From Rhytidiadelphus loreus (lineage: Eukaryota; Streptophyta; Bryopsida; Hypnales; Hylocomiaceae): DNA of 64,000 nt. The position numbers and the translations under genes were made by a program. Below the pieces are notes generated by a model. The model did no database searches and was not told the origin of the DNA. It worked only from the letters and a program-made list of their open reading frames with translations. Shown in pieces: positions 5,147-50,994 of this stretch. The first letter of the stretch is position 1. Every line of letters begins with the position of its first letter. The stretch spans positions 37,212,863 to 37,276,862 of the forward strand of contig OX344761.1 in assembly GCA_947034895.1 (NCBI GenBank), written 5' to 3'.

Positions 5147-8109
5147 CCACTCGTAAGTTCAAGTGTGGTCATACCCTAAGTTCGTGAGTATGATAAATCA
5201 TAAATAGAGCTCCAGTTTCTGATGAGCTGTATCGCAACTGTCCGAACGAAATTCAAGGACGGGCCTTCGTAAGTGATGACTTGAGACTGACTTCACAACT
5301 ACCGAGCATCTTCAAGGCCAATGAATGATGTTGCCCACATGTTTCTTCAGATTCTGTGGAGATTTTAAAGATGTCTTCACACAATCTTACAAAACGGAAT
5401 GTTGACTACCAAAGACACCAACTGGGGAGCATTGCCACAGGTAAGGTAGTGGAATTGGCAATGGAGTGTTTTGCATTGTGCAATTCAAGCATCGGAATAA
5501 GCTCAGAAGGTTCAAAAGAACCAGGATGGCAGTATTTACTGTGGGCTACACCTACTAGCACAACTTTATCCCCAAATGAACTGTAGATAGAGGACAAGAT
5601 TGATCAAATGAAATTTCCACCGGTATCAGCTTCACAGGAGCTCTAAAGTTGACACTGCAAGGATTGAGGGATACTATGAGAACAACCGTTCTGCTCAACA
5701 GTGAGAAGAGGCAGTCTACTCGACACTATACTATCTAGCCCATGAAAGAGAATAGGATCCTTGAGACAAGGACACCTTACTGCGTGAAAACGCAGAAGAA
5801 TCTAGCCCATAACCTAAACCCTAAAGTTTGAAAAGTAGAAGTCACGATTTACAAAACACCACACAGAGTAAGGATTAAATTATGCAAACGCACCAGCTTT
5901 TAAAACCCTGGCTAGAAAGCCATTCGGGCAGCCCCAGAAAGACTAAAAATCAGATTCCAACACTACTGCAATCGCCAAAGATTTCAGCAACAGAACCTGT
6001 AGAACCGAAGACATAAATTCACAAGCCACACATCATTCTTTCAGCTGTCCAACATTGCCCAAACCCGAAACTGGCAGTCTACAAACCTTCAGCCTGCTTG
6101 GATTCCTGGCATACGCTCATCGCAAGCATGGAAGTGATCCCGCGCATCCTTCAACACGAGCGCCATCCTTCGCCTCGGAGCAGAGCGATCGCCAATCAAT
6201 TGGCAACAAACTGAATTTCATCCCCTCCGAAACGAAAGGAGTCCCTGTCCACGTCACGGTCTTAGCCTACGACCGCCACTGTAAGAAGATTCTCCACTCG
6301 GTCATCGCCAACTTTTCACTGACGGCGACAATAATTGCGCCATTAGTCTCAAGCAGTCTCAGTCAAGGCCGTTTAGCGGTATTGTTTGAGTATTTATTCG
6401 AATCATTCTCTTGTGGTGGGCATCTCCAGTCCTCTTGACCCGGTGTTCGAGAACATCTGGATGCCTGGATCCCACCACTAAGCCCACTTTCTCTGCTCTG
6501 TTGTACATTGTACATGACATTCGCAATTAATTAAGGTGCGACGAGGATGATCCTTACGATCTGCTTAGGATGCTGTCTTATCGGGTCGAAATTGCAACAC
6601 GGCGGGCTCCCTTTTGGGGAGGTCACAAACAGATATAAAATTGTACATACCGCTTGGCGCTCGTTCAATTCGCTCAGACGCTCAGTGGAGCCCAAGCGCC
6701 CGTTGTATTTTATTGGCTCTTTGGGCACAGACACGACCTTTCTACACTTCTACTGTAATCTGACAACGCAGAGATAGAACCTACATCTACAGAGAAGCTA
6801 TATTGTCTGTAGCGTACAAACTGCTTGTTTTGCTGCAGTGCTGGCGCCTGCAGGGTCCCTTGACTTGATCAATCCGTGCAGGGAGCAGTGGAGCACTTGT
6901 TACGTGTGCAGTTGCGTGGAAACCTAAAGAATTTCCTCGCCCCGATACGGGCGGTCAGAATATTGTACACTGGTGAGTGACGAGGCCGCCAGTTTGCTGC
7001 CTACCACTGTTCCCCTTGCGTTGCTCTGTGCCGTATCTGAGAGGGAAACTGTCCAAGTTTGTGGGCAGTGACTCAGGGAGCATCTACACATTCATCTGTA
7101 TTCGATATCTCTGCAAGCTGCCGTTGCTTGGCAACTTGTTTCATTGATCGATTGATCCATTTCTGGACGCACGCATCGTTGGGAGACTTCTCAATCTACT
7201 GGAGCATTGCTCTAGGTACTCAAGCGCCATACCCGCTCACAAAGATTTGCAAGAAGTGAGGGATCCACTTTCTTGTAAAAGAAATTGACAGGGATCAGAA
7301 GCTGTGGTGATTCGTGCTAGCTTTTGTCAGAGATAGAAAGAGTGTCACTGTCGGACTTAGATCGTAGCTTTCTTGGTTTTCTGTTTTTGCACTGTGCGCA
7401 GTTTTGATTGCTGGTGCAACTCTGTTCTCTTTCGTGGTGGTTTGCTGGTGATGAAATTGTCACTTTAATGAGAGATTTTGTGGTGTAGAACGGAATTTCA
7501 CCATAGCGCAGCAAGGGGAGTTGTGGGATCCAGAGCCGGGACGCCATGGCTGTGCCAGGATTCGAGATTCGAGGTCGCTTCAGGGTATGGGAGACGGTGT
7601 GCTGTGTGCTGAATGGTGGTTGAGTGTCGGTGCCCACCGCCTTCGTGTGACGAGTTCAACCACAGGTAGAGATCTAAGCAAACCTCCCTGTTTCACTGCT
7701 TCTGTACTCCCGTTTCGTGCAGAAGAGTGATGGCAGCAATTGCAAGACGCACAAGCTGACATTGAGAGACGAATGATCTTAGCTTTCTTGTTCTATCAGC
7801 AGGGATCATTGTCCGAGAGTAGACTTTAGCACACAATGAGGTGCACATTGAGTGTCAGACCATGTATAGTGTTGCAATTGCTGAGATGTACATTCAGGAG
7901 AGCTGAAATTAGAACTAGAATCTATTGCTCGGTTTGATATGAGAAGATCGCGTTGTTTATTCTGCTGGAGGATGCTTGATTGAAGACTTTTCTCAGGAAT
8001 TTCAACATCTTATGCAGCGAACTATTAGGACTTGACAGAGTCTGCTAGGTCGAATCAAAGCAGAGTTTCAACACATTTTGGGCGACGAGCTTTGAGTTTT
8101 GTCGATACG
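5147..8109. other. Non-coding upstream region of the chimeric kinase gene
   Basis: No coding gene is supported here. The stretch from about 5900 is less AT-rich than the DNA to its left and probably contains the promoter and 5' leader of the gene starting at 8110. A telobox (AAACCCTAAA type) lies at 5816-5825 and a TATAAAA-like run near 6635. Short open frames, for example one opened by the ATG at 7546 in a GCCATGG context, match nothing known and may be upstream frames in a leader. A leader intron is possible, but I cannot place the transcription start. Confidence 0.4.
5816..5825 (+). promoter_or_regulatory. Telobox AAACCCTAAA
   Basis: This decamer is the plant telo-box found in many 5' regions of growth and translation genes. 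It is about 2.3 kb upstream of the 8110 start codon, so its link to that gene is uncertain. Confidence 0.4.
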
Positions 8110-11100
8110 ATGGCTGAATCGGAGGATACTAGACGCGCCATTGGCATCGATTTGGGGACTACAAACAGTCGTGTTGGGATCTGGTTAGATGAGGAGAATC
8201 GTTTCAAGCTCGTCCTTAACGACCATGGGAATCAAAGTACGCCCAGCTATGTCGCCTTTACAGAAACGGAGCGTCTCATTGGCGACGCAGCCAAGGATCA
8301 AGTGTCGAGGAACCCTGCCAACACAATTTTCGGTGCGTTTCTCGTCACGCTAGGTGCTTTCTTGAGACTATGGAGAAGGAAAGAAAGCCAACAGTTTACC
8401 AATAATTGAGCATGTTTTGGTGTCGTGTTTTTTGACCTTGAAGGGACCAAGGGTTCATGGTTTGGAAATGATTAATTCAATCGATCCTGTTGTGAACACC
8501 ATAATTAAGATGGGGCAAAATTTTGTATCGCCTATACCAGTAAAAACCATTCCATGTGTTGGTTAAGAAATAGTTAAAATTGGAGAAAAGAAAGTCCCCC
8601 ACAGGACCTGCTCAACTCTGCCAACCATCACTCGGTCCTGCAAGGTTAAAAAGTCGTAGGCAATAGATTGATACTTCGGAGCACGTTTTGCTTCTCTAGT
8701 CAAAATCCATTCGTATTCAAGGCATCAGACTGCAACCTCAAATCTATACTAGTTCTACTTGTGGAGCTTTGTGCACTTGAATGTCTTAATTTCTGGCGCT
8801 TTGATACACGCCACTTTTTCCAAATGGGATCATCATGGTACTTGTTTGTATTGCAGATGCGAAGAGGTTGATCGGGAGAAAATTCAGTGCCTTGGGAACC
8901 GATTCTGACAAAGTGCGCATCCAATGGCCATTTCGAGTGACTTGTGGGAAGGATGACAAGCCCGTGATCCATGTCGAATACAAGGGGAAGGAAAAAGTCT
9001 TTCCTGCGGAAGAAGTGTACGCTATGATCCTGGGGCAGATGAAAGATCTCGCTGAGGTTTCCTCCGGGTCCGTTGTCAATGGAGCTTCTGTCAGTGTTCC
9101 TCATTGCTTCAACTCAGCACAAAGACAAGCTACTCGAAACGCCTGCACCATGGCTGGTTTGGAGACCGTGATCCTTGTTAATGAGCCCGTTTGTGCTGCC
9201 CTCGCGTATACAGTAGCCAACACTACCCGTCCATCCCTTGGCGAGAAAAAAATCATGATTTTCGACCTTGGAGGTGGTTCACTGGACGTGACTTTGTTCA
9301 GCATTGAGGAGGGGGTTATTGAAGTCAAGGCAACCAGCGGCGACAGTCAATTGGGAGGGGAGGATTTTGACCTAAGGTTGCTCCATCATTTCATTCAAGA
9401 AATCTCGCAGAAACACGAGAGGGACGTCACCAGTCATCCACGTGTGGTAAGGAGATTGAAGAAGCAAGTGGAGAGGGTCAAGGTAGCCCTTTCCTCGGAG
9501 ATGGAAACTGCCATTGAGATTGATGCCTTGCTCGAAGATTTCGATTTCCACTCTAGCATCTCCCGAGCCTGCTTCGAGGAGATGAACGCTGACCTTTTTG
9601 GGAAATGCGTCCAGTGTGTGGAAGAGTGTCTGCAACGTGCACAGATGGAGAAAGCCGACGTCTACGAAGTGGTGATGATTGGGGGCTCTACTCGTATCCC
9701 CAAGGTGCAGCAACTTTTGGCGGAGTTTTTCAAAGGCGAAGAAAAATTGAAGAAAGCCATCGACGATGCTGTTGTTTGTGGCGCTGCTATTCGATCGGGA
9801 ATCTCTCGTGGGTACAAAGCTTTTGCAGATTATCTTGTAGTGGACGTGGCGCCCATGTCCTTAGGTTTGGAGACAGTTGGAGGGGCAATGCATGTGATGC
9901 ACGCACGAAACTCTAGCATTCCCAAGAGCTGTGAGCAGCTGTTCACTACTTGTTATGACAACCAGACGGGTATTTTTATCCAAATCTACGAAGGCGAAAA
10001 TCCTCAAGCATGCGGGAATATGTTGATTGCCACCATGGAACTCTCTGGGATTCCTCCTGCTCCATGTGGTGTGCCTCAGATCCTTGTGCGTTTTGACATC
10101 GATGCTGATGGTATCTTGACGGCTTTAGCTAAAGATAAGACAACCGGGAAGAAGGTGGAGGTTAACATGGTAAAGTATTCAAAGCTCTATAACCATACTA
10201 GCTTTTGGATCTTTTTTGAACTTTATTCTTGTCTTTTTGTGTTAAAATTGTTTTCAAGAAGACAGTGCTTGTCAAGGACAGCGTTTTTTTTCCTTTAAAT
10301 ACTTTCGAATTAGAAGTAAGCAGTAACAATGAAAAGCAAGGCTGCACTGACTCGAAATTTCATCTGCAGGAGGATATTGACGTTGCCACTAGTAGAGTGA
10401 ATGACGATGACGAGCGCCGCCAAAGGTTTCCCATGCAGGTTCGAAATTCCAAAATCAGAGTACATTTCTTGCAAGTCTTCACTACATCAATCTGGGATGA
10501 AGAATTTGAGTGATTCAAAGTGGGGTTGCTGGCCTTGTTTGCAGAGAAATTAGGGGTGAATCTAATGACGAATGCTATGAATTGGTGTTGGCAAGCCTTT
10601 GTTATGTGATTCAATCACGAAACCGAAGTAATGTTGAATTTAAGGACAAATCTGTTGCCTTCTAAATTCCACTTCTTGTTTGTAGGTGTATCATCCCTCT
10701 GAGAATCCACATGATCCCATCAGCCCGTCAGGACCACATGAATCAAGCAATTTCAATGCGAGCAGTCCACATGAACCGAGCAAGACTGTTGAGACTAGGT
10801 CGCCAGAGCTGAGTTACGTGCCACCACAAGCAGTTGAATCCAACATCACCGTAGTGAAAAGTTCTCAACCTCCATTGGCATTTGAATTCAATAACAACGT
10901 GAAGAGCGCGTCTTCTGAACCACATGAGTCAAGCAATACATTTGAGATGACTTTACAGGAGTTTCCTCAACCACCACCAGCAAGTGAATCAAACAAGAAT
11001 GTGGAGAGCAGGTCGCTGAGAATTGTAGAACCACCACTGGCATTTGAGCCATTGGAGTTTTCTGAACGACCACAAGAAAATGTTCAACCAAGTAATGCTG

Positions 11101-14100
11101 TCGATGTCGGATCACAGGAAAATACACAGTTTTACAGCTTTAGCAACATCGTGGAGAATGAAGCAGGTGAATTTTCTGCATCATCACCACCACAGGTACA
11201 TGGATTAAATACCTATGAGATTATGCCGCGTGAGTTACCTGAACCATCTCCAGAGTTAATCTCAAGATGGACCGAGGAGGGTAGGTCAGAAAAATTTGCA
11301 GAGCCTACTGAGGTTCAGGTGCTGAAGTCGACTCCAGAGCCAAGTCACAGAGGAGATTTACCTGCACCACCACGAGCACATGAATCAAGTGTTGTTGTGG
11401 AGGGCAAGCCGCAGGAGTTTTCTGAACAACGACAAGCATATGGCTCGAGCAAGCCACAGGAGTTTTCTGAACAACTACAGGCATATGGCTCGAGCAACAC
11501 TTTGGAAAGTGGACCAGCTATATTTCCTGCTATATCACCAGCATCCAAGGAATTGGACAGACCATATGAACACCCTGAACCACTACAGGTGCATGGGGTT
11601 ATCTCCTATGAGAGCAAACAGCTTGAGTTACCTGTACCGTCTCCAGGAAGCGGCACTCAGGTGATTAGGTCTGACGAGTTTTCTGTACCACCGCCAGCGT
11701 TTGGATCAAGCAACGGTGCAGAGGTTAGGTCGCAGGAATTTTCTTCAGCAAATGGATCAAGCAACTCCGTGGATAGCAGCTCACATATCGCTTTAGTGCA
11801 CAAGATAATTGAGACTGTCAACGTGATTGGGTCCATTGCAGATTTTCAGGCGCATAAAAAGGAGTGTTCCACCTTCATAAGGCGTGCGAACATGCTTGTC
11901 CCACTATTTGTGGAATTCCGGGATTCAGGTTTATCTTTCTCGGAAGCAATCGTCATATGTCTCAATGCCTTTGAAGCAGTCCTCAACACTGCCAAAGCCT
12001 TGCTTCTCTTGTGCAATGAAGGAAGTAAACTTTACCTGGTGAGATTTCGCCTGTTAAAATTTTTTCATCATGAGAACGGCTAATATATGTGCTTGCAAAT
12101 AATGGACGGCCCTAACCCGTATTTATCATTCGTTTACTTCTCTATGTGGTTTGTGGTCTTCTTATTGTTTTGAAACTTGTTGGAGGAAGTGATTTTCCTT
12201 CACCGTGTTATTAGCTGCAAGGTTTTTCTTTTGTCTGAGCTAGTCTCTCGTTCAGCTTCATTGTTAGGATTCTTTTTTGATGGTAATGAGTCTGACGAGC
12301 ATTTTCTGTTCCAGATCTTGGAACAACGAAAAGTGGCGGAACAGTTCTCCTTAGTGAACACAGGGTTGATTCAAGCCTTGGACAAGATACCGAGCTCGCT
12401 TGAAATTTCAGAAGAAGTACGGGAGCAGGTAAATTCTAACGGCTTCTCAATCCACAGTGACCTTGCTTTAAAATTCTGGTTGCGAGATTTTGCTGATGAG
12501 ATCCTTGATGTTAATCCTATCTTTCTTATTGCTCCAGGTTGATCTCGTCCACAGTCAGCTCAAAAGATCAAAAGGGCTGGAAGATGCTGTCGATTCGCAG
12601 CTCTACGCGGAGTTAATATCTGTACTGGATGAGACAAACGGACGCTCACGCTCACCGTTTCAACTTACACGACTGGCTGAGTCGTTTAAGTTAGACACGG
12701 CAACATCTCTAAGGAAGGAGTTCCAAGCTCTACGAGGGATGATGACGGCAAAGGAGCCATCTTTAGATGCTCTCGTGAACCAGGGAGAATTTGATCAAGT
12801 TTATGGACTTCTTAATGAGTTGAGGGATCTATATCCACTAGCAGAAGACCTACCTCCGCAAGGACATGGCTTAAGCAAGGTTGTGGAGAGCAGTTCACAA
12901 GAATTTTCTGCATCACCACCACCACGCATGTCAGGCTCGGAATCACCCCGCATTTTAAAGGAAGTGTCTGCACCACCACCAGGGAGTTGCGTAGAGGGCA
13001 GACCTCGTACTGAACCACTACAAGTGTACAGACCAACGGAGAGCAGGCCGCAGGAGTCTCCCCCACCCCCATCCCCACAAGTATACAAGTCAAGCCACAG
13101 CTTCGAGGACAGATCGTACTCTGAAGCACCACCAGTATACAGACCAAGTAAGACCTTTGGGAGCAGGCCTTACGAACCATTTATGTCACCTCGATCAAGC
13201 AACGCCTCTGAGAGTCGGTTACAGGAGTTTCCTGGTACTCAGTATGAAAGGGTGACAAGCATCTCGTCTTCTGAATTATCTCCAGTGCATAAATCAGGCA
13301 CTGGTCAGGAGGGCAGACCACAGGAATACTCTTCCGAACCACTACAAGCATACGGAACGAGCAAAACTTCAGAGAGCAGTCGACTTGAATCTCCTGAATC
13401 ATCTCCTGTGCATAAGTCCGGCAATGGCCAGGAGAGCACACCACAGGAATACTCTTCTGAACCATTGCAAGCATACGCAACAAGCAGCACTTCAGAGAGC
13501 AGGCGACTTGAACCTTCTGAATCATCTCCAGTGCGTAAGTCCGGCAATGGCCAGGAGAGCAGACCACAGGAATACTCTTCTGAACCATTACAAGCATACG
13601 CAACAAGCAGCACTTCAGAGAGTAGGCGGGATGAAGCATCAGCAATGCAGAGATTGAGTAGCAAGCAACATGAACCGGCTGCACTGTCTCCTGTGTACAA
13701 ATCGAGCAATGCCTCGGAGAGCAGCCGTCCAGTCTCTTCTGAACATACATACAAATCAAGCTCTACCTCTGATATGAGCTCGGAGGAGTTCTCGAATTCT
13801 GGTCCACTCAGAGCGCGTGTAGAATTGGACAAAGTGCCCGAGCTGCAGAGATCAGGAACCCGCGCAACTGAGCCATGGAATCCTGGGACTCCGAAACCAG
13901 CGACTGCTCGCAGTGCCTCCTGTCCGCAAATAATGACAACTGATTCCATTATTGAAGACGTTGTCAAGAAGTATAACTGGGACCAAGTTCTAGAGATGAC
14001 GGATAATCTGACTTCCAGACAGCTTGGAAAGGGTGGTTTTGGGGCTGTTTACTTGGCCAAGTTGGAGAATGGAAAAGAGGTGGCGGTGAAAATCCTTGAT

Positions 14101-16776
14101 GCGTCTTCTCAGCAAGGCATATCTGAGTTTCTTAACGAGGTACGACGGACGGTGCTCTGTCAAATTTGGATGTGCACTTTTCGATGAGGGGTTGTGTTTC
14201 ATATTGTGCAAGTCTTTGTTGGTTGGATGACAGTACTTCTTACACGTCAGTGCAAGATTTTGGAATATTTCTGGGTCACATCACACAAATGAAAGTCATT
14301 AGTATACACTGATTTGTCCTATTACTGCGTGTGACACTAATGTGTACCAAAATCACACTGTTTGTAAAATATTTAAATTAGTGGTCACAGTATTACTGTA
14401 TTATCACTAATAGGACAAAACAGTTTAGTTGACAGGTATCTAGGGAAGTGTAGACGATAATTCTTAGTCTGCATGATGTACCCATTCACTATTTTATTTT
14501 GAGGCCCGCTGCTGTGTGTCGTCGTTCATGGAATCACAATTATTACTACCAGAGTTTTGCTTAACTTTGTACGATTTCTTCTGGATTTTATGAATCGTAT
14601 TGAACGTATTGATTCGGTCATGTTGTGACAGGTGAACCTTCTCAAAAGAGTGAACCATGTGAATTTGATTAGACTCTTGGGTTACTGCCAAGATGAGAGA
14701 CAGGTTCTTATATATGAATTCGCAGAAGAAGGGAGTATATGGGACCATCTTCAAGGTCAGAATCACGTCTGCAAAGAAATATACGTATACTGTTTGCATT
14801 CAGCATTAGAGAGAAAGCTTTTTTTTTTGTGCCAGTGTGGGTATCTTTGCAGTTGAGTTTTGCTCTTGAATTAATTCGTTTCATGCAATGAACTGCAGCA
14901 GGGGGGAAATCCCTAGACTGGAAGCAGCGTCTCAACATAGCATTACAGTCCGCATGTGGTATGATCATTGCTCCTACATTTGTTTGATTGTTACAAGCAT
15001 GACGAATCTCTTTTTATCTTAAACGACTCTGGCGTGGTTTCTATGGCGCAATTCAGAATCGCTTTCAGTTGGTTTACCCTGCCTATGAGTGCATTAAAAC
15101 TTTTCATGGTGTACTTCGCTCTGGGTCTGGAGAATCCTTAATGGTCTCTCAATTTTTGAAAGACGATTTCCGTAGTGATTTATGACCGAGCTGGTAAAAC
15201 TCAAGACTTGCTAACTTGCGTGAGACTTTTTTGTGCCAGGGCTCGAGTACTTGCACACCGGGTGCAGTCCTAGAATTATTCACAGAGACATCAAGAGTCA
15301 AAATATTCTTCTTACAAAAAGTATGGTTGCCAAGGTTGCTGATTTTGGCCTATCGAAGTTGGGTGCTGATCAAGAAAATTTGAACAAGACGCATGTAACA
15401 ACCATGGTGAAAGGAACCCTTGGGTATCTAGACCCAGAGTATGTCTCGAATCCACTTTCACTTTCTCAATGCGATGATTTTATTGTTACATCAGTCATTA
15501 ACAGAGACTTAAGTTCTTCGATTTCATTGATCCTCCGATATTTTGCATGCTACAACGGTGTTAGCATCAGGTCGTAAAACTTAGTTTGTGTTATAATGTG
15601 ATGCAACCATCATTGAAGGGCTGCACTACTCGACACAAACAGCAAGTTAGAAATTGCAACTCTACCAACTAGTGCGGGTATCTCACTTTCAGGATCTGTT
15701 TGTGCAGGTATCTCAAAACCGGCCAGCTGACAGAGAAGAGTGATGTGTACAGTTTTGGAGTCATTCTAATGGAAATCATTACAGGCCGGAAACCAATCCA
15801 AAATTCTGAGAAAAAATGCTTCATCGGTGACTGGGTAAGTCACTCGCGGTCTCTCATTACTTTTAACAATGTAGTCTAGTGACCTCTTTGGAGTCTCTTG
15901 CTGGAAGCATACCATTATGGAATAAGTCAAAACGTTCCATACGTTCCATTCACTGAATGGTTAGGGGTAGCAAAATCTCCAATTATCAGACTCTTAACCT
16001 TACGCAACCAAAACGAGCGAACTTCACGTGTCTCCACTACATTGTTCACGAAAGACACCCTATGGGTTAATAATGCTATGAGAGATGTTCAATCTGTTTA
16101 GAATACCCGTCAAAACAAAACAAAATTATTTCTTGATAGGACAATTCACATTGAATCTTTTCATATCTTTGACATAAGACCATGAAAGGTTTTACATATC
16201 TCTTACTACCCATAGTGGTTTGGTTTTTAGTGTGAGTGGTTGGGATTGATAGATATAGATGGTTGAGATATTGAAGTGGTTTGAACCCTTACATAAATTG
16301 AGGCCTTAAACTCATTTACATATTCAGCTAACACTTGGTGGGAACGTCCTATGAGGATGGATTGTAAGTCTATTTATTCCGTACATCTTCTCAAAATGCG
16401 CATCAATATTTTCACATGAGCAGTACTGGATTTTTTTCTGAAGTGTAGAAGTGAGGCTCCTCAACTGAAGAGTGTTGCACAAACTCGTATGAGATGACTG
16501 ACTTAGTGACTGGAAACTGCTCTTGAATTTCAGGTGGACGAACACTACAATCCCAATTCTAGTTCCAGGGCACTGAAAACCGTCACAGATCCCAGTTTAG
16601 GTGGCCATTACAACCCCAAGGCCTTGAAACGGGTGATTGAAGTTGCGAGGCAATGCATACAACCATTCGGGGCAGACCGCCCAGAAATGACGGAAGTGGT
16701 CCGTGCATTGAGAAAGGCCCAGTCGACAGAACACGATGAGAAAAAATCCTCCAAGTGGTTACCAAGTTTTCGATGA
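8110..16776 (+). CDS. Chimeric Hsp70 - U-box N-terminal domain - Ser/Thr kinase protein (about 1,807 aa)
   Basis: Exons: 8110-8332, 8857-10169, 10370-10438, 10686-12038, 12315-12428, 12538-14139, 14632-14755, 14902-14958, 15240-15438, 15708-15834, 16534-16776. All junctions are GT-AG and keep frame. Residues about 10-400 form an Hsp70 ATPase: [28 protein letters not shown] and [10 protein letters not shown]. The linker [10 protein letters not shown] and a beta substrate-binding domain follow to about 505; the helical lid stops after some 20 residues. A Ser/Pro-rich linker leads to a plant U-box N-terminal (UND) helical domain (about 900-1100, with [19 protein letters not shown]). A second linker contains three 41-residue repeats. 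The kinase (about 1500-1790) has [24 protein letters not shown] and SDVYSFG, so it should be active, of the receptor-like cytoplasmic type. No signal peptide or membrane segment is seen. The start is the first ATG and gives the usual short Hsp70 N-terminus. Two genes with read-through remain possible. Confidence 0.83.
13267..13635 (+). repeat. Three in-frame 123-bp coding repeats in the kinase gene
   Basis: Units start at 13267, 13390 and 13513 and are highly similar, so the array expanded recently. Each encodes 41 residues with the order [26 protein letters not shown] and TSSTSESRR. The repeat lies in the disordered linker between the UND and kinase modules, and its length is a multiple of three, so copy-number change would not break the frame. 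Confidence 0.85.
14308..14424. repeat. Hairpin-forming inverted repeat in intron 6
   Basis: Arms 14308-14324 and 14408-14424 (ACTGATTTGTCCTATTA and its inverse) pair with one mismatch, and further partial pairing lies inside. It sits in the intron between kinase exons 14139 and 14632. It may be a small MITE remnant. Confidence 0.45.
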
Positions 16777-23940: not shown

Positions 23941-26900
23941 CTAGATGGATACACTATTGGGGATACCCTTGTTTGTGAGCCCACTTCCGGACATGGGTCG
24001 GAGGAGTTCATACGGTACTTTCGTGGGACCATTTCGGTTCTTCAATGAAGGATCTGCATTCCTTGATTTGATGAGAGCATCAATCTCCTCAATCTTCTTT
24101 GAGAATTTTTCAAACGCAGCCTCCACCTGAATCAATCAAATCACACACACACACACAAAAATTCTATGAGTCAGGCTGCTCCTGTCACGTCACTGATAAA
24201 AATCCAGCACCATACATCATGATCCACGGCAGCTTGATGTAAGATTTTTGTTTGTTGTTGCATTGCACCGGATTCCATTCCATCCTAGTAGTTTATATCC
24301 ATGGAATAAGGAAAAGGAAAAACAGGGAGTGAGCATATAATTATACCTTGGAATTCGAAGTCCAACCAGCCGGCCTGTGCCCGAGATACTCCTCATTCGT
24401 CGCATGCGTGGACAGAATCTCTACAGCAGTCATGTTAATCCTCGCCTGAATTGGATTCGCCAGCATGGACAACAAAAAGTGCTCCGGCTTCTGTTGCAAC
24501 TGCTCCCACTCAGCCGTGTCTTGCTCCGGGATGAGTTTCCGAGTCAAGGAAGGGTGGTTGGGCATGAAGCCCGCGTACAAGTACTGTCCGAAGTTCACAG
24601 CTGCATGGTGGCACGAGGCGATCCAGGCGATGGTGGTGATGATCTGCACCAAATTGTCTTTGGAGTCCGCCAGGATCCAGCCCTCGGTGATGTCGCTGTG
24701 GCCTTTGAGTCGTGCTTCCGTCCACCAATTCTGCAACTCGACGTCGGATTGCACGGCGGCATCGGTGGCATAGAAGAGGTCGATGTGGTCCTTCACCCAG
24801 GCGCGAATGGCGGCCCAGAGTTCAAGACCGTCCTTGGCGTAGGGGTAGTCCTCAATCACTAGTTTCAGGCCGTGGGGGGCAGATGGGTCTGGGATAGCTA
24901 GACCCCTGGTAAATATACATCACACAATTGTCACACTAATCAAAATCATATGTTGGCAAGTTTCAGTGTTCCAAAATGGAACCTTCCAGTGCTGATGCAT
25001 TTTAGGGTTTCCGAATGCATCACTTTTGTAATATTACGCCAATATAACGAATTCATTTTAGGGTTGAAATCCATTGTTGTAAGACCGATGAACGACTGTG
25101 AGAACAGTGAGGCGCAGCTAGAGTCACATACCTCTTGACCAAGTCATTCGGCAGGGCCTGGTCGACGAAGCGCCATCCTTTGTACACAACGGCAGAGATT
25201 TCCATGGCGTACTTCTGTGGAGTGAAGGTTTGTTCCACAATCCCGCCTCCATTGATGAGTGTGGTGCGAGCCTGCTGGTTGATGTCCATGGTGTTCTTGT
25301 AATGTGGGACAAGAGCTTTGTGCACGGGATGCAAGATACTCAATTGTCTATTGGTGGCGATCACCAAGGGCTCAATCACGGCGTGCGTCCGCAACCTGCA
25401 TCACAACCCATCAACATGATCACGTAAGCACAATGTAGTGTGCGTGTCAGTTTTCGTACTGATCATCCTATTTAGTGTTTGATACAATATATTGCAAGCC
25501 TATGATACATCATGAACACCATGTATCATTGTATCTATTGACGAATACCATTTACTAAGCTTTGGATCCCATGGATGCTCGAGTAACTATTCACTCAAAA
25601 GCTACTTGAAGGTGGTTCCAAAGTACAGAATGAACAAAAATTTTGTTATTTTATGACAAGCTGTTTCTGTATCACATATATCATGAATGATACTATATAG
25701 AATGAACTTACCAGTGGCTGATGACTTGGTGCCAGGAAGCGTCGTTGCTCTGGACATGCGCTTTGGCAAGCTCCCACGCCCAGTTGGTAGTTGCGCCTTG
25801 CTCAGCAGGGCGGAACACTCGGAATATGGGTCTGTCTCCCTCCGACTTCGCTGGAAGAGCGAGCTCGATACAAATGGGCTTCAACATGCCGGCCTTGGTG
25901 AGGAAGAAGAGTGTCCACGAGGCATACGCTTGACTGGTTTTCTGCTCGTTGATGCGCTGGATGTAGCCCATGAACCGGTCATGGTAGTCCAACACAAACA
26001 GCCTCTTCTTCTTCAAGGCCTGGGATGGTACCATGAGCAACATTGGGGTCAACTCACATCAATCTAACAAACGGGACATCGCTCAAGCGAAATTCAGGCA
26101 GCAGAATTCTGCACATGCCCCTCGAGTTGGCTGTAGAGTATATGCGTTTATGATTCGAGTACGAGATGCTGCCGTGGTTCAGCCAAAAACCTCATCTACG
26201 TCATGGGGCAAAAAAATTACCTCGGAAATGCTGAGACCTTCAAGTTGAGGCTCAACGATTTTTGCAGTTACAGCAGACGCTCTCTTCAGTGGAAATTCCT
26301 GTTGCAACAGAGTGCACCATCAGTATTTTGATCTTGAAGAAGACGATCGAAACAAACCCGAATGCGTAATCACTCACAATTGAATCTTCATAAATCAAGA
26401 TAAGTAGGATGACAGTAGTACCTTAAGAGTTTCAATGAGCAAGGGATTCATGCCGGCTAGCGCTTGACGAGCGAACTCCACGTCTTTGGACCAAGCGTTC
26501 TTATCAGCTGCACCAAATTATGATCAAAACCCATCATGTTAAGTACTAATTATTCCACAGCACTGGAGTAAGCTACAATCCAGTGCTCTCCAAACCCTTC
26601 ATTACCTGCGATGATTCTGGGTGTGGGGTACTTGAACGTGTTCTTGTTCTCCCCAGAGGCGAAAGCGAAGTTGCGAAGGAGCTCGAAAGGCTTGGCCTGG
26701 TGACCGGCCACAGTCTCCAGATTGGATTCCTCCCCAACCGGAGCATACATGCACCTAATCTCGTCAAAGTCTCGGAACTCTGACTTATCCAGGTCGAAGA
26801 GGTCAGCCACAGCTTTGTGTTTCTGACCCTTGATGAAGTTGCCCAGGAAACCAGATCTCTTCACCTCGTCGAACACTTCATCTCTAGGAACGTAATTGCT

Positions 26901-42500: not shown

Positions 42501-45500
42501 TGAGGTTGGAGTCGTATGCGCATGGCGAGGGCACAAGGAACGGACACTTACCATTTTTTGCTTAGATTGCCGCAACTGAACACAATGGGAGACAAGAACA
42601 TACCCCAGATTTCAGACATGAGAACAAAATCCTACTGAACAATACTCAATCCCCATTTAACAACGAGCTCACTTATCATTTAAAATTCGGAAACTACAAG
42701 AAACAGGAATAAAGAAAGCTTGTAAAGATCTAACTTGAGTGTAAATCACAAAGAATCCGGGAAGTTAGTAAACTTGCCTCGAATGAAGCTCCATGGCTTA
42801 CACCACAAGAGATGTGGAATGGAGCTCTGCAGTCCTTTATTGAACAGAGAGAACATACACCCCTCTTCACTCCACATAACCCACAACGATCCTGTCGATC
42901 CTGTCGATCCTGGGCCCTTGCCGCCACTGCTGCAATACCATCGATTGGTTCCATCGCATCAGGGTCAACAAAAAAGGTTTCCTTGGTATAGAGAGCACAA
43001 GCGACATGGGCCCACTTTCGAGCATCTACCGTTGGTTTCAAAGCACCTCCTCTTTCTCGACAAAGGGCACAGCTGCACCATAATATCCAATCCAAACTCT
43101 CAGTAGCAGATGTGAGCAAAACCAGCTTCAAGATGCTAAAATGCTAATCGAAAGCAATATGTACCGACAGGCTGTCTAGCTGACCCAAAATTATAAACAA
43201 GTTAAACGAAAAACGACAAAGAAGATGCACAAATCATGAACCTCTTTCTTTTCTTACTTACAAGTTTGCAATTCGAAACTATAGTTTCCTACAGTATGAA
43301 CAACCAGTTAATTGGCATAATTCGAGGAAAATAATGTCAACCCACGCTCAGGTAAAGATACTCCCAGGTAAATTGAATGAATTCCCACAAAACTGAGTTC
43401 AAAACATGGACTCACAACACCACTTCACAACAAAGCGCATACCTGACTTTAGGCTGTGCCCTGCCAACAGCCACCGCCTCACACTTGCGACAACACCAGC
43501 TTGAAGGCCCAACAACGTGACCTAGAGCATCACAGAACTTTTCACGAATTCCATAGCACGATTGATGCACGTGTATCAAGCATTGTTTGCAAGTGTACAC
43601 CTGCAAAGCACATCATATGCATCAGGACCAGTTATCATTCTTGAAGAGTAATGCACCTTATTATTCTGTAGGAATGTTACAAAGTCAAGTTAGGCATAAA
43701 TCACAGGGCGAAAAAACCTTTAATAGAATCTAATGCAAATAGAGACGAAGAACACTGCTTGCACGACTTGGAGATCGCTGCACCTAGAGGATCCTTCAAG
43801 CATTACTGGATATAGAAGCACACTGAATATAGAAGCACACTTACTGGGTTATCATCATCATCTTCGCCTCCATTACATATGCAACAACCGTCAGAGGGTT
43901 TTTGTTGTGTTGGAGCCCTGAAGGATTTCAGTAATGAACCTTCGCTTGTTTTTTCAGTCACAGTATCAATCATAGATTTGCAGATGTTTCTTTCATTTTC
44001 CGAGGTCTCCCCACCAACAATCTTAACCCGGATTGCTGAGGATGCTAGAACCTTTTTTCCCGAGATCGGCACATCTTTCAAACCACCAGTCCAATGAGGA
44101 CGTCGAGATCTAATTCTAGAGGGATTTGACGCAGGCACATTTTCCGGAACTGGAACACCTGTACCGGTTGGACTGATACTTAAACAGCCCGGACCTGATG
44201 GGGAGGTGCTTGGTAAAGAACTACCAGGTACAGGATGTGCCGAAGACTGTTGACAGACCGGGAATCCTGGAAAATCCTCAGCTGGAGCAACTTCCATCTG
44301 AGCATGCAATCTCTCAAAATATTCAATGATCTCTTCAAACTTGTCTTCAGATATGGGCTGCTTTAAGACTCCTCGTGCGAGCCGCTTATTCCAAGCGTGC
44401 AGCCATCTCTCATCTTCATCGTCCATATCATAGTCTGGCATTGTCCTCGAACTCATTAAGGTTTGCATCTACGACCATGAACAACGATTCCAGAGTAAGA
44501 AGGGTGATAAACAAAGATACTGGACGCACTCTCAGGAAGGACAAACCAACGGGATGACAAGCTCCGAAAACTCCAGACTTTCCATACAAAGCAGCTGAAA
44601 AACTCCAAGTTTAACGAAATTACCTCGCAAGTACCACGATGCTGCTCCATCACAACCTTCCTCCTCTTCTCAACATTTTGCTGTGTATCTTCATAGTCGG
44701 GCACAACCCGGAATGATGGAGTTGCTATTCTGGATTTGACCATTTCTTGGTCATGCTTGCGAACTCTTTTCCTAACAGTTGGGGATGGTGCAGCATACCC
44801 TTTATCTTGATGTGTCAGCCATCGGCAAAATGGACCGCAATCCGCGTCCTCAAAATCCTAGTAAATTAAAATCAAAAGAATTAAGCAGGATTCTACGACA
44901 ATCAGAGTACTATCACAACAGTGCAATCTTACTTCATTTAAACATTACAACGATTTGCAACAAAAACGTACAGGGCATACAACAGACTACATACCAGATT
45001 ACCAGATTACCTCATTACCTAATTTCTACTGCTTTCACAACATATTCAATATCCGAACTTGTGAGGATAAATAGTCCACATGAAGCTGTTGATTCCCTTG
45101 TTGATACCTCATCGCGACCTTCAACAAGGACGAGGACTGGCTGGTCTGGATTAATGTGTTGATTTCGCCTGGATCGATTACTGGTGTTTTGTAATTGGCT
45201 TCTTCTTTTAGATCCAAAAGGATGAGGATGGGGCCTCCCTGTTTCATGTGGAGCTTTGTCGTGACAGTAGGCGCGCGGCCTGCCCCTCTTTTTGAGAGGA
45301 CGAACCTGAAGTACAGTCGATTGACGTAAAGAGTATGAGTTCTCATATAATACTGACAGAAAAATCAAGCACTAAATATAAGCCAGGAAACCACAGCAGA
45401 TAAACATTTATAAGAATTACCACAGCGCTCACCAACTGATCATCAACGGTCACATTTAATGGTGAAACGTATGGCTGATCTCCATTCTCCTCGAGCTCGC

Positions 45501-48500
45501 CAAGATGTCTGGTACGTTGAACTGTGAGATCATCAGTATGCCTGTCTTCAAAATCGTCAACATGTTGACTGTGCCCATCTTTGGCCTTCGTTCCAAGGGG
45601 TGACTGTACCTGTTTTCCTGCCTCTTGAGCAACACCAATTTCTGCTCCAGAAACCTGCACAGATTCCAGTGACTCTGATACCGCGGCATCACTATTCCGT
45701 AGAATCACTTGCCTTAACCTCTCGGATATTGCGTCAGGATCTGCACTCAAGGCCTGGTCGACTGGAATACCAGAAATACCAGAATCTGTCGCAACATTGA
45801 CAATCTCTTCAATATGACCTTCGGGCACTCTTTCCTCTTCATTTCGTACATCTTGCTCGATTACAACTAAAACTGGTGGAGAGACTAGCTCCGACTCACA
45901 TCCCGTTTCACTAGCAACGAAACCTGCTCGGCTTTCTGAATAAGATAAAATCGCACTCTTCACCCCGGACGCCACATCTGCAAAATCATAAAATTTGTGG
46001 TGCTCTCCCTCCAGCGGCGAAACAACCTCATTTGAATCCTCAAGGCATTCCAACATGCGTGCCTCTCCTACTTTCTCCTCCGCAAGAATCACCATCTGGT
46101 CACTTCCATCTGTATAAGTAGGTTTTGCAACTAGAAGATTTCCGTTCCCATGTGGGGATGCAGTGGTTGATGTCATTCCCACGGATCCACCACGATTCTT
46201 CTCTTGATCACTTCCACAATCACTTCCAATCAAGTGCTCCGCCATAGCTCCAGCGTTCTGAACCAACAGATTTTCTCGCATTTCAATAGGACAATTGCTA
46301 TCCTTTTGACCCCATCCAATGATACCATTTCTGACTTCAATATACTTAGGACCTGCTTGCCAGGAAGATCTCACAATTACCCCTTCATCAACAGGTTCAG
46401 AGATACCCTCAGCACATAGTGATACACTTCCCTCATGGGCTCCAGTTAGTTCTTCCAAAAGTTGAACATCCAACATCTGCTCATCGGTAGACACAGAATC
46501 AGCTACCAGAACACTTACGGGATCCACCAAAACCTTTGCCAGTGACACATCCTCTCCTATACGTGTGGGTACATGTGATGCTCGGACTGTAGTCATTTCT
46601 CGAGAATCCATGGCAAACCTTTCTGAAAGAATGTCTGCAGACCTTAGTTCATCTACAGGCAAGGCCCCATCGTCTTCTTCTGGAAGCTGAGCATCCAACG
46701 CCTCTTCGAGGGCACACGTCGAGTCAGCCACCAGAGAACTTCTTCGTTCCACCACAGCATCTGCCCGTGGAACATTCTGTTCAGCTCTTTCGAACACTTC
46801 AGGATGTACAGAATCTACAGGTCCACTTTTAGATATATCTAACTCCTTTTGCAGCACAAATTTCAACAAATCGATATCTGCCTTTGATGTCACTGGAACT
46901 TTTTCTGTTGAAGAAGGCATCTGAGCATCGCACATCTCATCCTTGCGCTCCTTCTTCTGATTTTCTATTCGTTCAGGAACTGCATGATGGGGACGTCCAA
47001 CTGCTGTTGCAGCTACAATGTCGGCTCTACACCCACAAGGGCATGTTTCGTTAGCTTCGCAGATACAATCCTGTACAACATTTCGCTGAACCTCGCATGA
47101 GGTCTCCTCTCGTAGACCTACAACATCTCTGTCGACGTCCTCCATTTCCTTCAAGCTAGCATTGCAGGACCATTCCAAGATCGTCTCTGCATCCACAGAA
47201 TCAGCGTCTGCGTCGCCCATTTGTTTCAAACCCGCCTCACAGGATGACGCCAAGGTAGTCCCACCATCTATAAGACCCTCACAGCCGTCAGCACAACATT
47301 TATCCGTCTCCAGACGTTGTGACGGAGACTGTATCCTCCCGTCTGACAATTCTTCATCAGAACGATTGAATGACAGAAGGCGCTCTTTGCTCTGTTCAGA
47401 GTGCTCCACTGCATCTTCACAAAGCCCTAGCTCTATTTCGACTAAAGCCTCTGACAGAGGAACATCCTCTCTTGTTCGTGTGTCCAAAAGTGGCTCTGGC
47501 TCCGCAGCAGCTCCTGGCAACTTAGCAGGATCCTCCCCTATCACAATGCCTCTGTTTCGTAATCCATCCAAAGCAAGGGCTTGTGATAGTTCATCCCAAA
47601 CGAATAAGTCAGACATCTCCTCGTCCATACCCATCGAACCAGCCACCACAACCTCGACCCGTGGAGCACCCTCTTCCCTTCTTACAAGCTCAGGCGATGC
47701 TAGTACTGTTGCAGATCCTAACGAGTCAATGGGATCTCTCTCTGAAACAAACTCAGCACGCCGAGATTCATCCAAAACAAGGCCCTGTGGGACTTCTTCC
47801 GGAAGCTGAACATCAGAAACATTCTCCTCATCAGATACCATATCAGCCACCAAACAACTTGCTCGTTCGATCCCTGTAGGAAGACCAGCCTCTTCTAGTC
47901 TTGTCAAAACAGGAACTTCTGGAACAGCATTCGAGGAGTCTGTGCCAACTCTCTTTGAGACATTGCAGGCAAACCATGATTCATCTACACCTAGGGGACC
48001 AGAGGGTTCCTCAGAAAGTTCAACATCCAATGCCTTCTCGTTGGAAGACACAGAATCGGCCACCGCAACGGTTGATCGTTCCACCACGACTTCTTCCCGT
48101 GGAACACTCTGTTGAATTCTTGTAGGCACAGCCGATGTCAAGGCCGCAGCAGCTTCTGGCGAGTTTACAACACTCATATTCGATGCATTCTCTGCAAACC
48201 TTGAATCCTGTACAGCAAGACCTCGCTCTAACTCTTCGAAAATCTGAGCATCCGACATCTCGTCCTCAATTGACGCAGCATCAGACACCACAGCATCTGC
48301 CCGTAATACATCCTCTCCTCTTCTTGTGAGGACTGGTGATGCTGGGACCATAGCCGTATCAGAGAAGTCAAAGGCAAGCCTATCTGAGAGAATTTCTGCG
48401 GACCGTGATTCATTTACAGCTAAGGGGCCGCCGCGATCTTCCGGATGCGGAGTACCCGACGCATCCTCATCAGAACACATCGAATCAGCCAGTTTTGAAC

Positions 48501-49506
48501 TTCTTCGTTCCACCACAGCCTTCACATGTGGAACATCACCTTCGGATCTTGCCAGCGCAGCTGATGTAGGGACCGCAGTAGCTCTCAGGGCGACGCTACC
48601 ATCCCTCTCGGACACAATGTCTGCAGACCCTGATGCATCTTGAGCCACAGCTTGCAAGAGCTTATCAGAAAAGTGACCACCCGTATCAGCCCGTGGTGAA
48701 CCTGACCATTGAGCAACAGGAGCAAGCGATCGAGTGGTCTGGTTCAGTAGAGCCAAAAACCCGCCCTCTACTTCAGCAGACCGTAACTGAAACTTAATAG
48801 GTGGAGAATGAGCCTCCACATTCAAATGCAAGGTTCCCGCTGTCTTGCAAGAAGGAGCTGCTCTTACTTCGACAGGATCATCACCCAGTTGAGCTTGCAA
48901 AAGCGAATAGTATGACACAGGCGGTACTCTGCCACCAACAGTGTCTCCACGTAACGATAGCTCAGCTCGCGTGCCTGACTCTGCAATCTTGTGTACAGAA
49001 GTTCGAGGTTGAACTCCAGAAGCATTAATGGCACCTTCTAACAGACTGCTGAACGACAACATCGGCGATCGAGCACCACTACGAGATTTGGTGATCCCTC
49101 TGGATTTTAAGAGCGATCGAGGAAATCCAGCGATCTTCAAATCCTCGACCCGCGAAGCTCTTCCTCGCATGAGACCTGCGCCAGCACTCTTAGGTGTAAG
49201 AACAGATTGAGGCCCATGTTTATCTAACTCCATAACTGAGGCGGAAGTGTATTCTGCAAGGGATTCATCAGTAGCTCCGGAGGTATTTGGCCGAGAGACG
49301 CTCATGGAATTCTTCGCGAACCGCGTCTCTGCTTTTCCCTGAAGCGTAGAACTCGACTTTGAATTGCCACCTTGTGAAACACCATTCGGAACGCATTTCG
49401 AGTGCAAATCCTGGTAACCGGGAGTACCCATACTCTCCAACGGTTGCTTTAATAACTCCAGTATGATTTCCACGGGCTGTGGAGGGATGGAAACTGTGGG
49501 AGGCAT
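39544..49506 (-). CDS. Large PHD / extended-PHD chromatin reader with EPL1-like segment (about 2,579 aa)
   Basis: A nuclear histone-reading protein of the BRPF/JADE-like plant type. Exons 5' to 3' (minus strand): 49506-45433, 45305-45108, 44857-44624, 44468-43845, 43600-43443, 43072-42778, 42575-41694, 41465-41337, 40689-39544, all joining in frame. Intron 6 starts GC (AG|GCAAGT); the others start GT. Exon 1 encodes about 1,358 residues, mostly acidic diverged repeats. Then come an AT-hook (KKRGRPR, about 1363) and an EPL1-like acidic motif (PDYDMDDEDERWL, about 1513). A PHD finger (CCICNGG to CCRKCE, about 1697-1745) and an extended PHD (SCALCRERGG to CPRH, about 1764-1877) follow. The last exon adds a Cys-rich finger (RCVWC to CKYC, about 2255-2305) and a Gly/Arg-rich tail (GKGRGKG). 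The PHD-ePHD pair is the module that reads the histone H3 tail and DNA. The start is the first ATG of the long frame. Exact exon 2 and exon 8 borders are inferred from phase. Confidence 0.9.
46380..48660 (-). repeat. Diverged 65-70-residue repeats within the PHD gene exon 1
   Basis: The encoded protein repeats a pattern with VVVERRSS..VADS, then a Ser/Asp/Glu stretch, DxQLPEE, LxVDESRxAE, SERxxxDS and xASPxxTRxxED. I count about eight units, spread over 48660-47400 and 46850-46380, with less regular sequence between them. Units are diverged, so the expansion is old. The repeat is acidic and probably disordered. Confidence 0.7.
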
Positions 49507-50994
49507 CCCTCCTCCTGTATCACTAAACTAAACCATGGGTCCTTGCGCTCACAGTTCAGCAGCCACGACGATCAGCAAAGTATGATCGTTTGCCATTCCT
49601 GCCCTACTCAGGCTTCACCACCAGATGGGTCTCGTTGTTGCCTTAAAGTTCTTTACCATCACTAAATTCACATTCACCAATGTTATACCTGTCACAATCG
49701 AGAGCAACCGTGCGTTAGTATCCTTGTAAATACCATAAACCCGTGCCGAAAATCTAGAGCACAAGTAAAATTCATCTCGCGAAACACTAAGACTTGATTC
49801 ACCATCCTCCTGAAAAAAAAAATCGCTCACAAAAGGGCAGCAGAGGCTACAGTTCAAGGAAGCGAATTTCAAAGTCGTTACTGCTCCCAGTAGCCAAGCC
49901 AGCAAGATCGACAGACAGCACCACGCATTCCACGTCGAGCGTTGTACCAAGCGATTTTCGTAGCCATTCTGTATTCCCTGTCTTGCTAAAGGCTCGACTT
50001 GTATGGCAGCGTGTGCAATCTTTCTCTCTTATATAGTTTACCCCGTGGTTCTACGGCTACTGAAGACGGCAGCTATTGATCCTCGAGGACGAGAACCGAA
50101 CGAGACGAAATCAAATTCTCGTTCCCGTCTGCACGATTTCCACGACATGCAGACGTTTTCGGCTTCTAAAACACTCCCATCGAAAACTCCTCAGACTTCT
50201 TCCCACTGTCGTTCCTCTGCATGTAATGTGCACTAAGCTACCAGCATTGTTTCCTTCTCGCGCAACGAGCTGCCGATTGCGGTCTTCTGATAAAAAAAAA
50301 GTAACACCGCTCCACGAGTGCAATTAGATAATCCTAACCGCCACCAGAATTCATCAAACACACAAAGACGGCAGCAAAACTTCAATTGCCTCCGCCAAGC
50401 AGATACTTCACAACATACCTGACACAGATAATTTCTCTCAAGGTCATCGTCCCAGAATACTTCAGACGACCGCGTGATCCGTCATCTCCGAACCAATTCC
50501 TGCGCCGTCCCCTGTTTTCACAATCACAGCGCCGACTAACAAACCGTCGACACCACAAGCCACACCTGGCCTGCCGATTTTTCCTTCAAAGCGCATCATC
50601 CTCACTAAGAGAATCAATCGCTACAGTGCCGCACCTTGGAGTCGCCACCATCGGAAAAGCAAACCAGAAGACCTAAATTACGATTCGGCGAGGTTGGAAG
50701 TCGGCACTCATGATTTCTTCACCACCCGCCCACCAAAGCGGAGGAGAACTCGCTCGGGAACAGCAGACGATGTTACTAGAACGTCTGGGAACGTTTTGGG
50801 GAACGCCGAATGCTTGTCCAAAGCACGATTTCAAATGCGAATCCATTTTCGGATTTTGGGTTTTCAATAATGTTTTGAGTTTTTAAGCAACTTTGAATTC
50901 GTAAGGCGGAGTCAGTCTGGGATTTGGGATTTGCGGCGTGGATGGTTTAATACTGTTTTTCGGGCACTGCGTGTTCCCCTAATGCCGCCTCTCT
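49507..50994. promoter_or_regulatory. Divergent intergenic region between the PHD and nuclease genes
   Basis: The PHD gene starts leftward at 49506 and the YqaJ-type nuclease rightward at 50995, leaving about 1.5 kb that must contain both promoters and leaders. The sequence is richer in GC than the repeat regions. Frames within it match nothing known. I cannot separate the two promoters by eye. Confidence 0.55.

Follow-up and report, generated by a model that had tools for sequence, protein, structure and literature searches.

A predicted moss gene joining a lid-less Hsp70, a PUB13-type UND and a protein kinase

The subject of this work is a gene found in a 64,000-nucleotide stretch of DNA (hereafter the window), which lies at 37.2 Mb of contig OX344761.1 in the 407-Mb genome of the moss Rhytidiadelphus loreus. 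The gene occupies positions 8110 to 16776 of the forward strand, and its predicted product carries an Hsp70 part, the U-box N-terminal domain (UND) of plant U-box (PUB) ligases and a protein kinase, with a long linker on either side of the UND.

Gene structure and conservation of the fusion

A preliminary description of the locus had read eleven exons in frame from an Hsp70 start codon through the UND to a kinase. This reading was borne out by an independent exon model and by a Pfam scan of the protein. The exon model yielded 11 exons separated by introns that are all GT-AG (Table 1), and it recovered the junctions 10438|10686, 12038|12315 and 12428|12538, which had been singled out for checking. 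The coding sequence of 5,427 nt encodes 1,808 amino acids (aa) followed by a TGA stop codon. The Pfam scan placed HSP70 at aa 10-517 (E 4.4e-160, profile positions 1-501 of 599), PUB10_N (the UND, PF25368) at aa 926-1036 (E 9.3e-24) and the kinase at aa 1517-1787 (E 2.1e-51), and gave no match to a U-box or to ARM repeats.

A whole-protein search, in which candidates had 0.55 to 1.75 times the length of the query (about 995-3164 aa) and the 7,975 sharing most words with it were scored, gave 413 matches with E <= 0.001; what we say about the composition of the matches refers to the best 120 of these. The preliminary description had proposed to look for proteins with Hsp70, UND and kinase in this order, and one was found in Ceratodon purpureus. 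P0001 (hypothetical protein M758_1G176500, 1,890 aa, predicted) is 57% identical over 100% of the query and appears to be a full-length orthologue with both linkers and the same order of domains (Pfam: HSP70 10-521, PUB10_N 930-1040, kinase 1600-1867). Identity between the two proteins is 80.2% in the Hsp70 segment (413/515), 71.3% in the UND (82/115; 58.4%, 52/89, in its second part) and 82.0% in the kinase (255/311), whereas it is 38.1% in linker 1 (139/365 over aa 536-921, a segment which takes in the first residues of the UND, beginning at aa 899) and 44.8% in linker 2 (148/330). Domains that are 71-82% identical next to linkers that are 38-45% identical are the pattern expected if purifying selection acted on three domains of one protein.

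Both fusion proteins are predicted from gene models, and it has to be considered whether two neighbouring genes, one for a truncated Hsp70 and one for a UND-kinase, have been joined by the models only. An Hsp70-scored search (residues 1-536; 7,995 candidates scored, results given for the best 120, models shorter than 443 aa being outside the length filter) listed seven relatives of the Hsp70 part that are 74-88% identical to it (P0140, P0141, P0144 and P0147-P0150). In P0144 exons 1 and 2 are joined and the frame runs on for a few codons beyond the donor; it encodes an Hsp70 of 520 aa without a lid, such as the two-gene explanation would predict. In Physcomitrella, where 21 Hsp70 genes have been described, cHsp70-5 and cHsp70-9 are reported to have neither the C-terminal domain nor EEVD and, on account of missing expression data, have been classed as probable pseudogenes (PMC5028893). 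On the other side, all seven relatives diverge from the window soon after exon 2 ends, within a few codons, as they would if they were reading into an intron; P0140 and P0149 share with the read-through of the window the five residues VKYSK and diverge after them. Six of the seven start just before DAKRL or DVKRL, which is the position of the intron-1 acceptor in the window. It must be noted that what the relatives show is the conservation of the splice site that ends the Hsp70 part, not the fusion itself. At the junction between Hsp70 and linker, counterparts of exon 3 and of the beginning of exon 4 can be recognised in Ceratodon, and introns 2 and 3 contain stop codons in the incoming frame. 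The codon preceding exon 4 in frame is TAG and the first Met is codon 88, thus a separate downstream gene would need a start inside the linker. The two exons bearing the linkers, of 451 and 534 codons, each have a single open frame among the six; none of 1000 simulated sequences per exon was fully open, the longest open runs being 206 and 256 codons. We therefore regard two separate genes as highly improbable. The single fused gene of the preliminary description is supported by the independent, likewise predicted Ceratodon orthologue, by the conserved splice boundaries and by a conserved Hsp70 clade (see below).

No second fused copy was found in the R. loreus genome by HSP70, PUB10_N and kinase searches. 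Only one of the 63 HSP70 matches in the genome, exon 2 of the window, has the profile span 62-501, and one of the seven PUB10_N places is the fusion gene. The kinase search scored 125 of 1,502 candidates and would not settle the question of a second copy by itself; its top-scoring match outside the gene is 45% identical over 288 positions, and short exon-sized matches reach 59%. UND-kinase proteins without Hsp70 were absent from the 15 matches of a UND-scored search. In agreement with the preliminary description, whose author knew of no family with this domain order, none appeared to be described in the papers listed by searches of an open-licence library aimed at this protein or at Hsp70-kinase combinations, nor was a paper naming M758_1G176500 found there; nothing on an Hsp70-UND-kinase fusion was found in PMC5039405 and PMC3310802. 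The fusion thus looks real and undescribed. Almost certainly, it is a single conserved gene of mosses that codes for a soluble kinase with several domains, in which an Hsp70 consisting of nucleotide-binding domain (NBD) and beta part of the substrate-binding domain (SBD-beta), its lid lost, is followed by a disordered linker, a PUB13-type UND, a second disordered linker and an RD kinase. With the same near certainty, its parts come from a cytosol-type Hsp70, from the exons encoding the N-terminus of a PUB13-like ligase, which were taken over together with their introns but without U-box and ARM repeats, and from a kinase of the RLK/Pelle type.

Table 1. Exons of the fusion gene and other matches in the window
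Feature	Position	Strand	Content
Exon 1	8110..8332	+	Start codon and Hsp70 phosphate-1 loop (GIDLGTT); start MAExED shared with Ceratodon
Exon 2	8857..10169	+	Rest of the Hsp70 NBD, and SBD-beta; no lid; seven relatives diverge shortly past the donor
Exon 3	10370..10438	+	23 aa connecting Hsp70 to the linker; 11/22 aligned residues identical in Ceratodon
Exon 4, first part	10686..11774	+	Linker 1, rich in Ser, Pro and Glu; recurring motifs of the types QE(F/Y)S and PP.A(F/Y)
Exon 4, last part	11775..12038	+	UND, starting at the position where the PUB13-like protein starts
Exon 5	12315..12428	+	UND; splice junctions as in PUB genes L012 and L013
Exon 6, first part	12538..12837	+	End of UND; the U-box that comes next in L012 and L013 is missing
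Exon 6, middle	12838..13935	+	Linker 2, motif type like that of linker 1; contains a 123-bp tandem repeat
Exon 6, end	13936..14139	+	Kinase N-lobe: Gly-loop, VAVK lysine, alpha-C Glu
Exon 7	14632..14755	+	Kinase
Exon 8	14899..14958	+	Kinase; CAGCAG acceptor choice adds one codon, present in Ceratodon too
Exon 9	15240..15438	+	HRD and DFG motifs
Exon 10	15708..15834	+	Kinase C-lobe
Exon 11	16534..16776	+	Kinase end, stop codon TGA
Lipoxygenase exon	24341-24916	-	PF00305, E 6.8e-79
Enhancer-of-polycomb-like match (EPL1)	43803-44468	-	E 1.1e-8
YqaJ-like domain	52363-53202	+	PF09588, E 3.7e-20

The domains and the linkers

In a tree of 23 Hsp70 rows (midpoint root) the Hsp70 parts of the window and of Ceratodon and the seven relatives form a clade of nine (support 100/100, stem 0.69 changes per column), separate from canonical cytosolic Hsp70 and from BiP. 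The nine rows were compared with ten canonical Hsp70s at the catalytic sites, which are named by bovine Hsc70 and E. coli DnaK numbering, mapped by motif. D10 and T13 are kept in the three rows that cover them, and K71, P143, R155, E175, D199, G202, G203, D206, K271, S275, G338 and G339 in all covering rows; Y15 is replaced by Asn in the three covering rows and T204 by Ser in all nine. The residues F426, Q433 and I438 of the SBD-beta peptide pocket are kept in 9/9. Of the canonical invariants, the window keeps 181/283 in the NBD, 59/92 in SBD-beta and 2/58 in the lid. As far as can be judged from sequence, the nucleotide site and the SBD-beta with its pocket are those of an Hsp70, and the C-terminal end is not: the lid is absent, and EEVD is not present in the fusion protein. 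Physcomitrium P0161, a canonical cytosolic Hsp70, has the same NBD, SBD-beta and nearly all the catalytic residues; the window is only 53.5% identical to it, belongs to a separate clade and differs in Arg272 as well as in the missing lid and EEVD. A predicted structure of the relative P0144 was of moderate quality (predicted local distance difference test 66.7, predicted template modelling score 0.72) and its matches in the PDB are to Hsp70 structures, among them a lid-truncated BiP; as a model of a relative it adds little. P0161 was the only P. patens protein among the best 120 of the Hsp70-scored search, with its filter against models below 443 aa. Judging by their descriptions, cHsp70-5 and cHsp70-9 of Physcomitrella may be relatives of this Hsp70, or the Hsp70 half of this fusion; the word 'kinase' does not occur in the main text of that paper (PMC5028893).

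The 15 proteins found by the UND-scored search all carry ARM and UND Pfams, 14 of them also a U-box Pfam and none a kinase. Identity to the UND of the fusion is 57-61% for P0121-P0125, 52% for the Physcomitrium PUB13-like P0126 and 33-39% for the others. Six of the seven PUB10_N places in the R. loreus genome, the window among them, are above the cut-off; at two of the places, L012 and L013, the UND continues into U-box-like sequence, whereas in the fusion linker and kinase stand in place of the U-box and the ARM repeats. In the window, L012 and L013 the UND is split at the same residues and in the same phase (KLYL | (I/V)LEQ and REQ | VDLVH), and the UND of the window starts where the PUB protein starts. 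Since its two introns are exactly at the L012/L013 positions, we conclude that the UND was derived from the gene of a PUB13-like ligase. In a tree of 17 UND rows, eight moss-type PUB rows, P0124, P0126, L012 and L013 among them, group to the exclusion of the two fusion rows (support 97/97), thus the capture seems older than the split between Physcomitrium and Ceratodon, and the fusion probably predates it. The window and Ceratodon UNDs do not form a supported pair in this tree. An apparent early branching could also result if the fusion has evolved faster.

The UND also brings to mind MLKL, a pseudokinase with an N-terminal four-helix bundle. If the fusion were an executor of this kind, UND and kinase would oligomerise at membranes and kill the cell upon release by the kinase or by Hsp70. 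The best solved relatives of the UND profile are indeed MLKL N-terminal bundles (7 of 11 matches, E 0.0012-0.016; the other four have E 0.65-0.86), and Pfam MLKL_N gives E 0.0012, below its cut-off. This remote similarity (E about 0.001) is not special to the fusion, since most of the sequences behind the profile are UNDs of ordinary PUBs, those of moss type being 52-62% identical to the fusion UND. The kinase, unlike the pseudokinase MLKL, has all catalytic motifs, and about 365 aa of linker separate it from the UND. We consider such a function very unlikely.

The predicted kinase is complete, as had been claimed: glycine loop, catalytic Lys, alpha-C Glu, HRD, DFG and DPEY region are all present. 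Among 244 compared proteins the nearest kinases are those of P0001 (82%) and of the Sphagnum malectin-like and leucine-rich repeat (LRR) receptor kinases P0049, P0052 and P0056, RD kinases of the RLK/Pelle family with 47-49% identity. The fusion differs from these in having Hsp70 and UND in place of an ectodomain, and in lacking a membrane span: no 19-aa window across the protein has a hydrophobicity above 1.6. With catalytic motifs and no transmembrane span it has the features of a receptor-like cytoplasmic kinase, in accordance with the cytoplasmic location suggested previously. The double acceptor CAGCAG before exon 8 (14893-14901) could yield two isoforms that differ by one residue.

The linkers of the window contain 17-23% Ser, 12% Pro and 11-12% Glu. 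Short recurring motifs, which were selected after inspection of the sequences, flank the UND on both sides in both species and exceed the shuffled expectation in most, not all, rows. The tandem repeat in linker 2 (13267-13628) has 2.9 copies with 89% match, and its length varies between species.

A possible Hsp70-gated kinase and the alternatives

Protein damage is sensed largely by means of chaperones that are titrated off separate signalling proteins, as BiP is from IRE1. The fusion may allow the cell to read protein damage directly with a kinase. In the mechanism which we propose, the Hsp70, driven by ATP and devoid of a lid, would bind and release exposed peptide segments fast, acting as a sensor and not as a folding machine. 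At rest it would be docked in cis on the flexible linkers or on the kinase and would block kinase self-activation; unfolded clients would displace it by competition, whereupon the kinase would autophosphorylate and signal, and the UND would direct the protein to a partner or a place. The missing lid, on which the preliminary description had not remarked, favours a fast sensor over a folding chaperone, and lidless DnaK reportedly has raised peptide on- and off-rates. Repression of IRE1 by BiP has been described to act via flexible regions of the IRE1 luminal domain (PMC6996924), and may serve as a worked example of an Hsp70 controlling a kinase-bearing sensor. The analogy is one of working principle: BiP and IRE1 are two proteins of the endoplasmic reticulum, the moss protein would be a single cytosolic polypeptide, and we do not assign it to that system. 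The coupling of client binding to phosphorylation, already suggested in the preliminary description, is what we infer from the observed anatomy and its conservation. Gene identity and mechanism taken together, we give this explanation a probability of roughly one half; the mechanism, taken on its own, is a tentative proposal that is less likely to be right than wrong.

Several observations weigh against this explanation. The linkers, with 11-12% Glu, are acidic and not obvious Hsp70 sites. Arg272, a residue that stacks on adenine, is replaced by V, L, I or M in all nine clade rows, and in the interdomain linker, which has a role in Hsp70 allostery, the first Leu is Tyr in 9/9 and the third Val or Ile. 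Because of these replacements nucleotide handling and coupling may differ from those of canonical Hsp70. Single rows have further changes (E268 and R342 in P0144, D366 in P0147). The whole protein was found, among the best 120 matches, in only one other species, Ceratodon, and both proteins are predictions from DNA. The Physcomitrella Hsp70s that have no C-terminal domain are described as showing no evidence of expression (PMC5028893). With respect to the UND, that of PUB18 has been called a determinant of substrate specificity (PMC8875423), whereas the function of the PUB13 UND is called unknown in a study in which it did not bind BAK1 (PMC4449551). Finally, three-unit heat-shock elements with at most one mismatch are absent from the 2.1 kb upstream of the gene (6001-8110), the whole window having 28; that upstream stretch has no more than two matches to a two-unit element, at 6284 and 6445. 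A stress-activated kinase, which the preliminary description suggested as a possibility, is thus left without support, and we do not claim a heat-shock promoter or induction by heat.

It is possible to think of the Hsp70 as a folding aid in cis, serving a long kinase protein and having no signalling role. Kinases are commonly clients of chaperones, and the Hsp70 residues are conserved. Lidless DnaK was, however, reported to be unable to stimulate luciferase refolding (PMC3696110). The capture of the UND would be left unexplained, and the R. loreus genome has many other kinase matches (128, the exons of this gene included), none of which is, to our knowledge, fused to Hsp70. For these reasons we hold the private chaperone to be unlikely.

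It is informative to compare the moss fusion with other predicted proteins that contain an Hsp70. The best 120 matches of the whole-protein search include five legume proteins with Hsp70, NB-ARC and TIR (P0009, P0033, P0041, P0048 and P0050). The last four were scanned and have the order Hsp70-NB-ARC-TIR; between Lotus P0033 and Trifolium P0041 identity reaches 75% across 1,060 columns, thus there is apparently a conserved legume receptor of the immune type with an Hsp70. Like the moss protein, these have an N-terminal, lid-truncated Hsp70 fused to a signalling module, in another lineage and with another partner, and they keep more of the lid (the HSP70 profile is matched up to positions 537-564 of 599). 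Hsp70 and kinase occur together in four of the 120 proteins: P0001, P0028, P0031 and P0034. In P0028, which is predicted from a 4,086-base contig, a malectin-like receptor kinase precedes a lid-less Hsp70 (profile stop 499 of 599) that has Asn in place of both T204 and D206. Descent from the same fusion ancestor was rejected on account of these residues, the reversed order and the position of its Hsp70 on a long branch outside the fusion clade. Nor can Hsp70-kinase joins be considered common, since Anopheles P0031 and P0034 carry a complete canonical Hsp70 after the kinase (profile 1-599 in P0031) and look like joined neighbouring genes.

In plant NLR receptors integrated domains act as baits, and the lid-truncated Hsp70s that in Lotus and Trifolium are joined to NB-ARC and TIR, and in P0028 to a receptor kinase, would fit such a role. 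In the moss protein the lid-less Hsp70 and the UND would then be decoys of the chaperone and PUB13 ligase targets, attack on which by a pathogen would trigger a defence through the kinase; PUB13 has been described as attenuating FLS2 immune signalling. A bait need not keep the ATPase residues, which are kept here, and domains with 71-82% conservation are not fast-evolving as an arms race predicts. The three kinds of fusion also differ in order and partner. A bait is in our view rather unlikely. The moss, legume and P0028 cases together suggest that signalling proteins have acquired a lid-less Hsp70 more than once. One might speculate, with less confidence than for the sensor mechanism itself, that the lid-stripped Hsp70 is a plug-in sensor which plants have recruited independently on several occasions, in mosses for a kinase (with UND), in legumes for NB-ARC-TIR and in P0028 for a malectin-like receptor kinase. 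The moss protein would then be the first cytosolic kinase to be gated, within a single polypeptide, by the occupancy of a chaperone. The gene also offers a case of domain capture from a ubiquitin ligase gene, introns included, and with chaperone and kinase in one conserved protein their coupling is testable in one polypeptide.

Other features in the window and the genome

Three further matches in the window are included in Table 1. The EPL1 match adjoins an open frame of 1,394 aa on the same strand (45343-49527). Elsewhere on the contig that carries the window (C1), five Hsp70 loci lie within about 150 kb, at 14219071-14367249. The scores of four are equal and that of the fifth is close, and each locus consists of a first-exon piece and a main piece.

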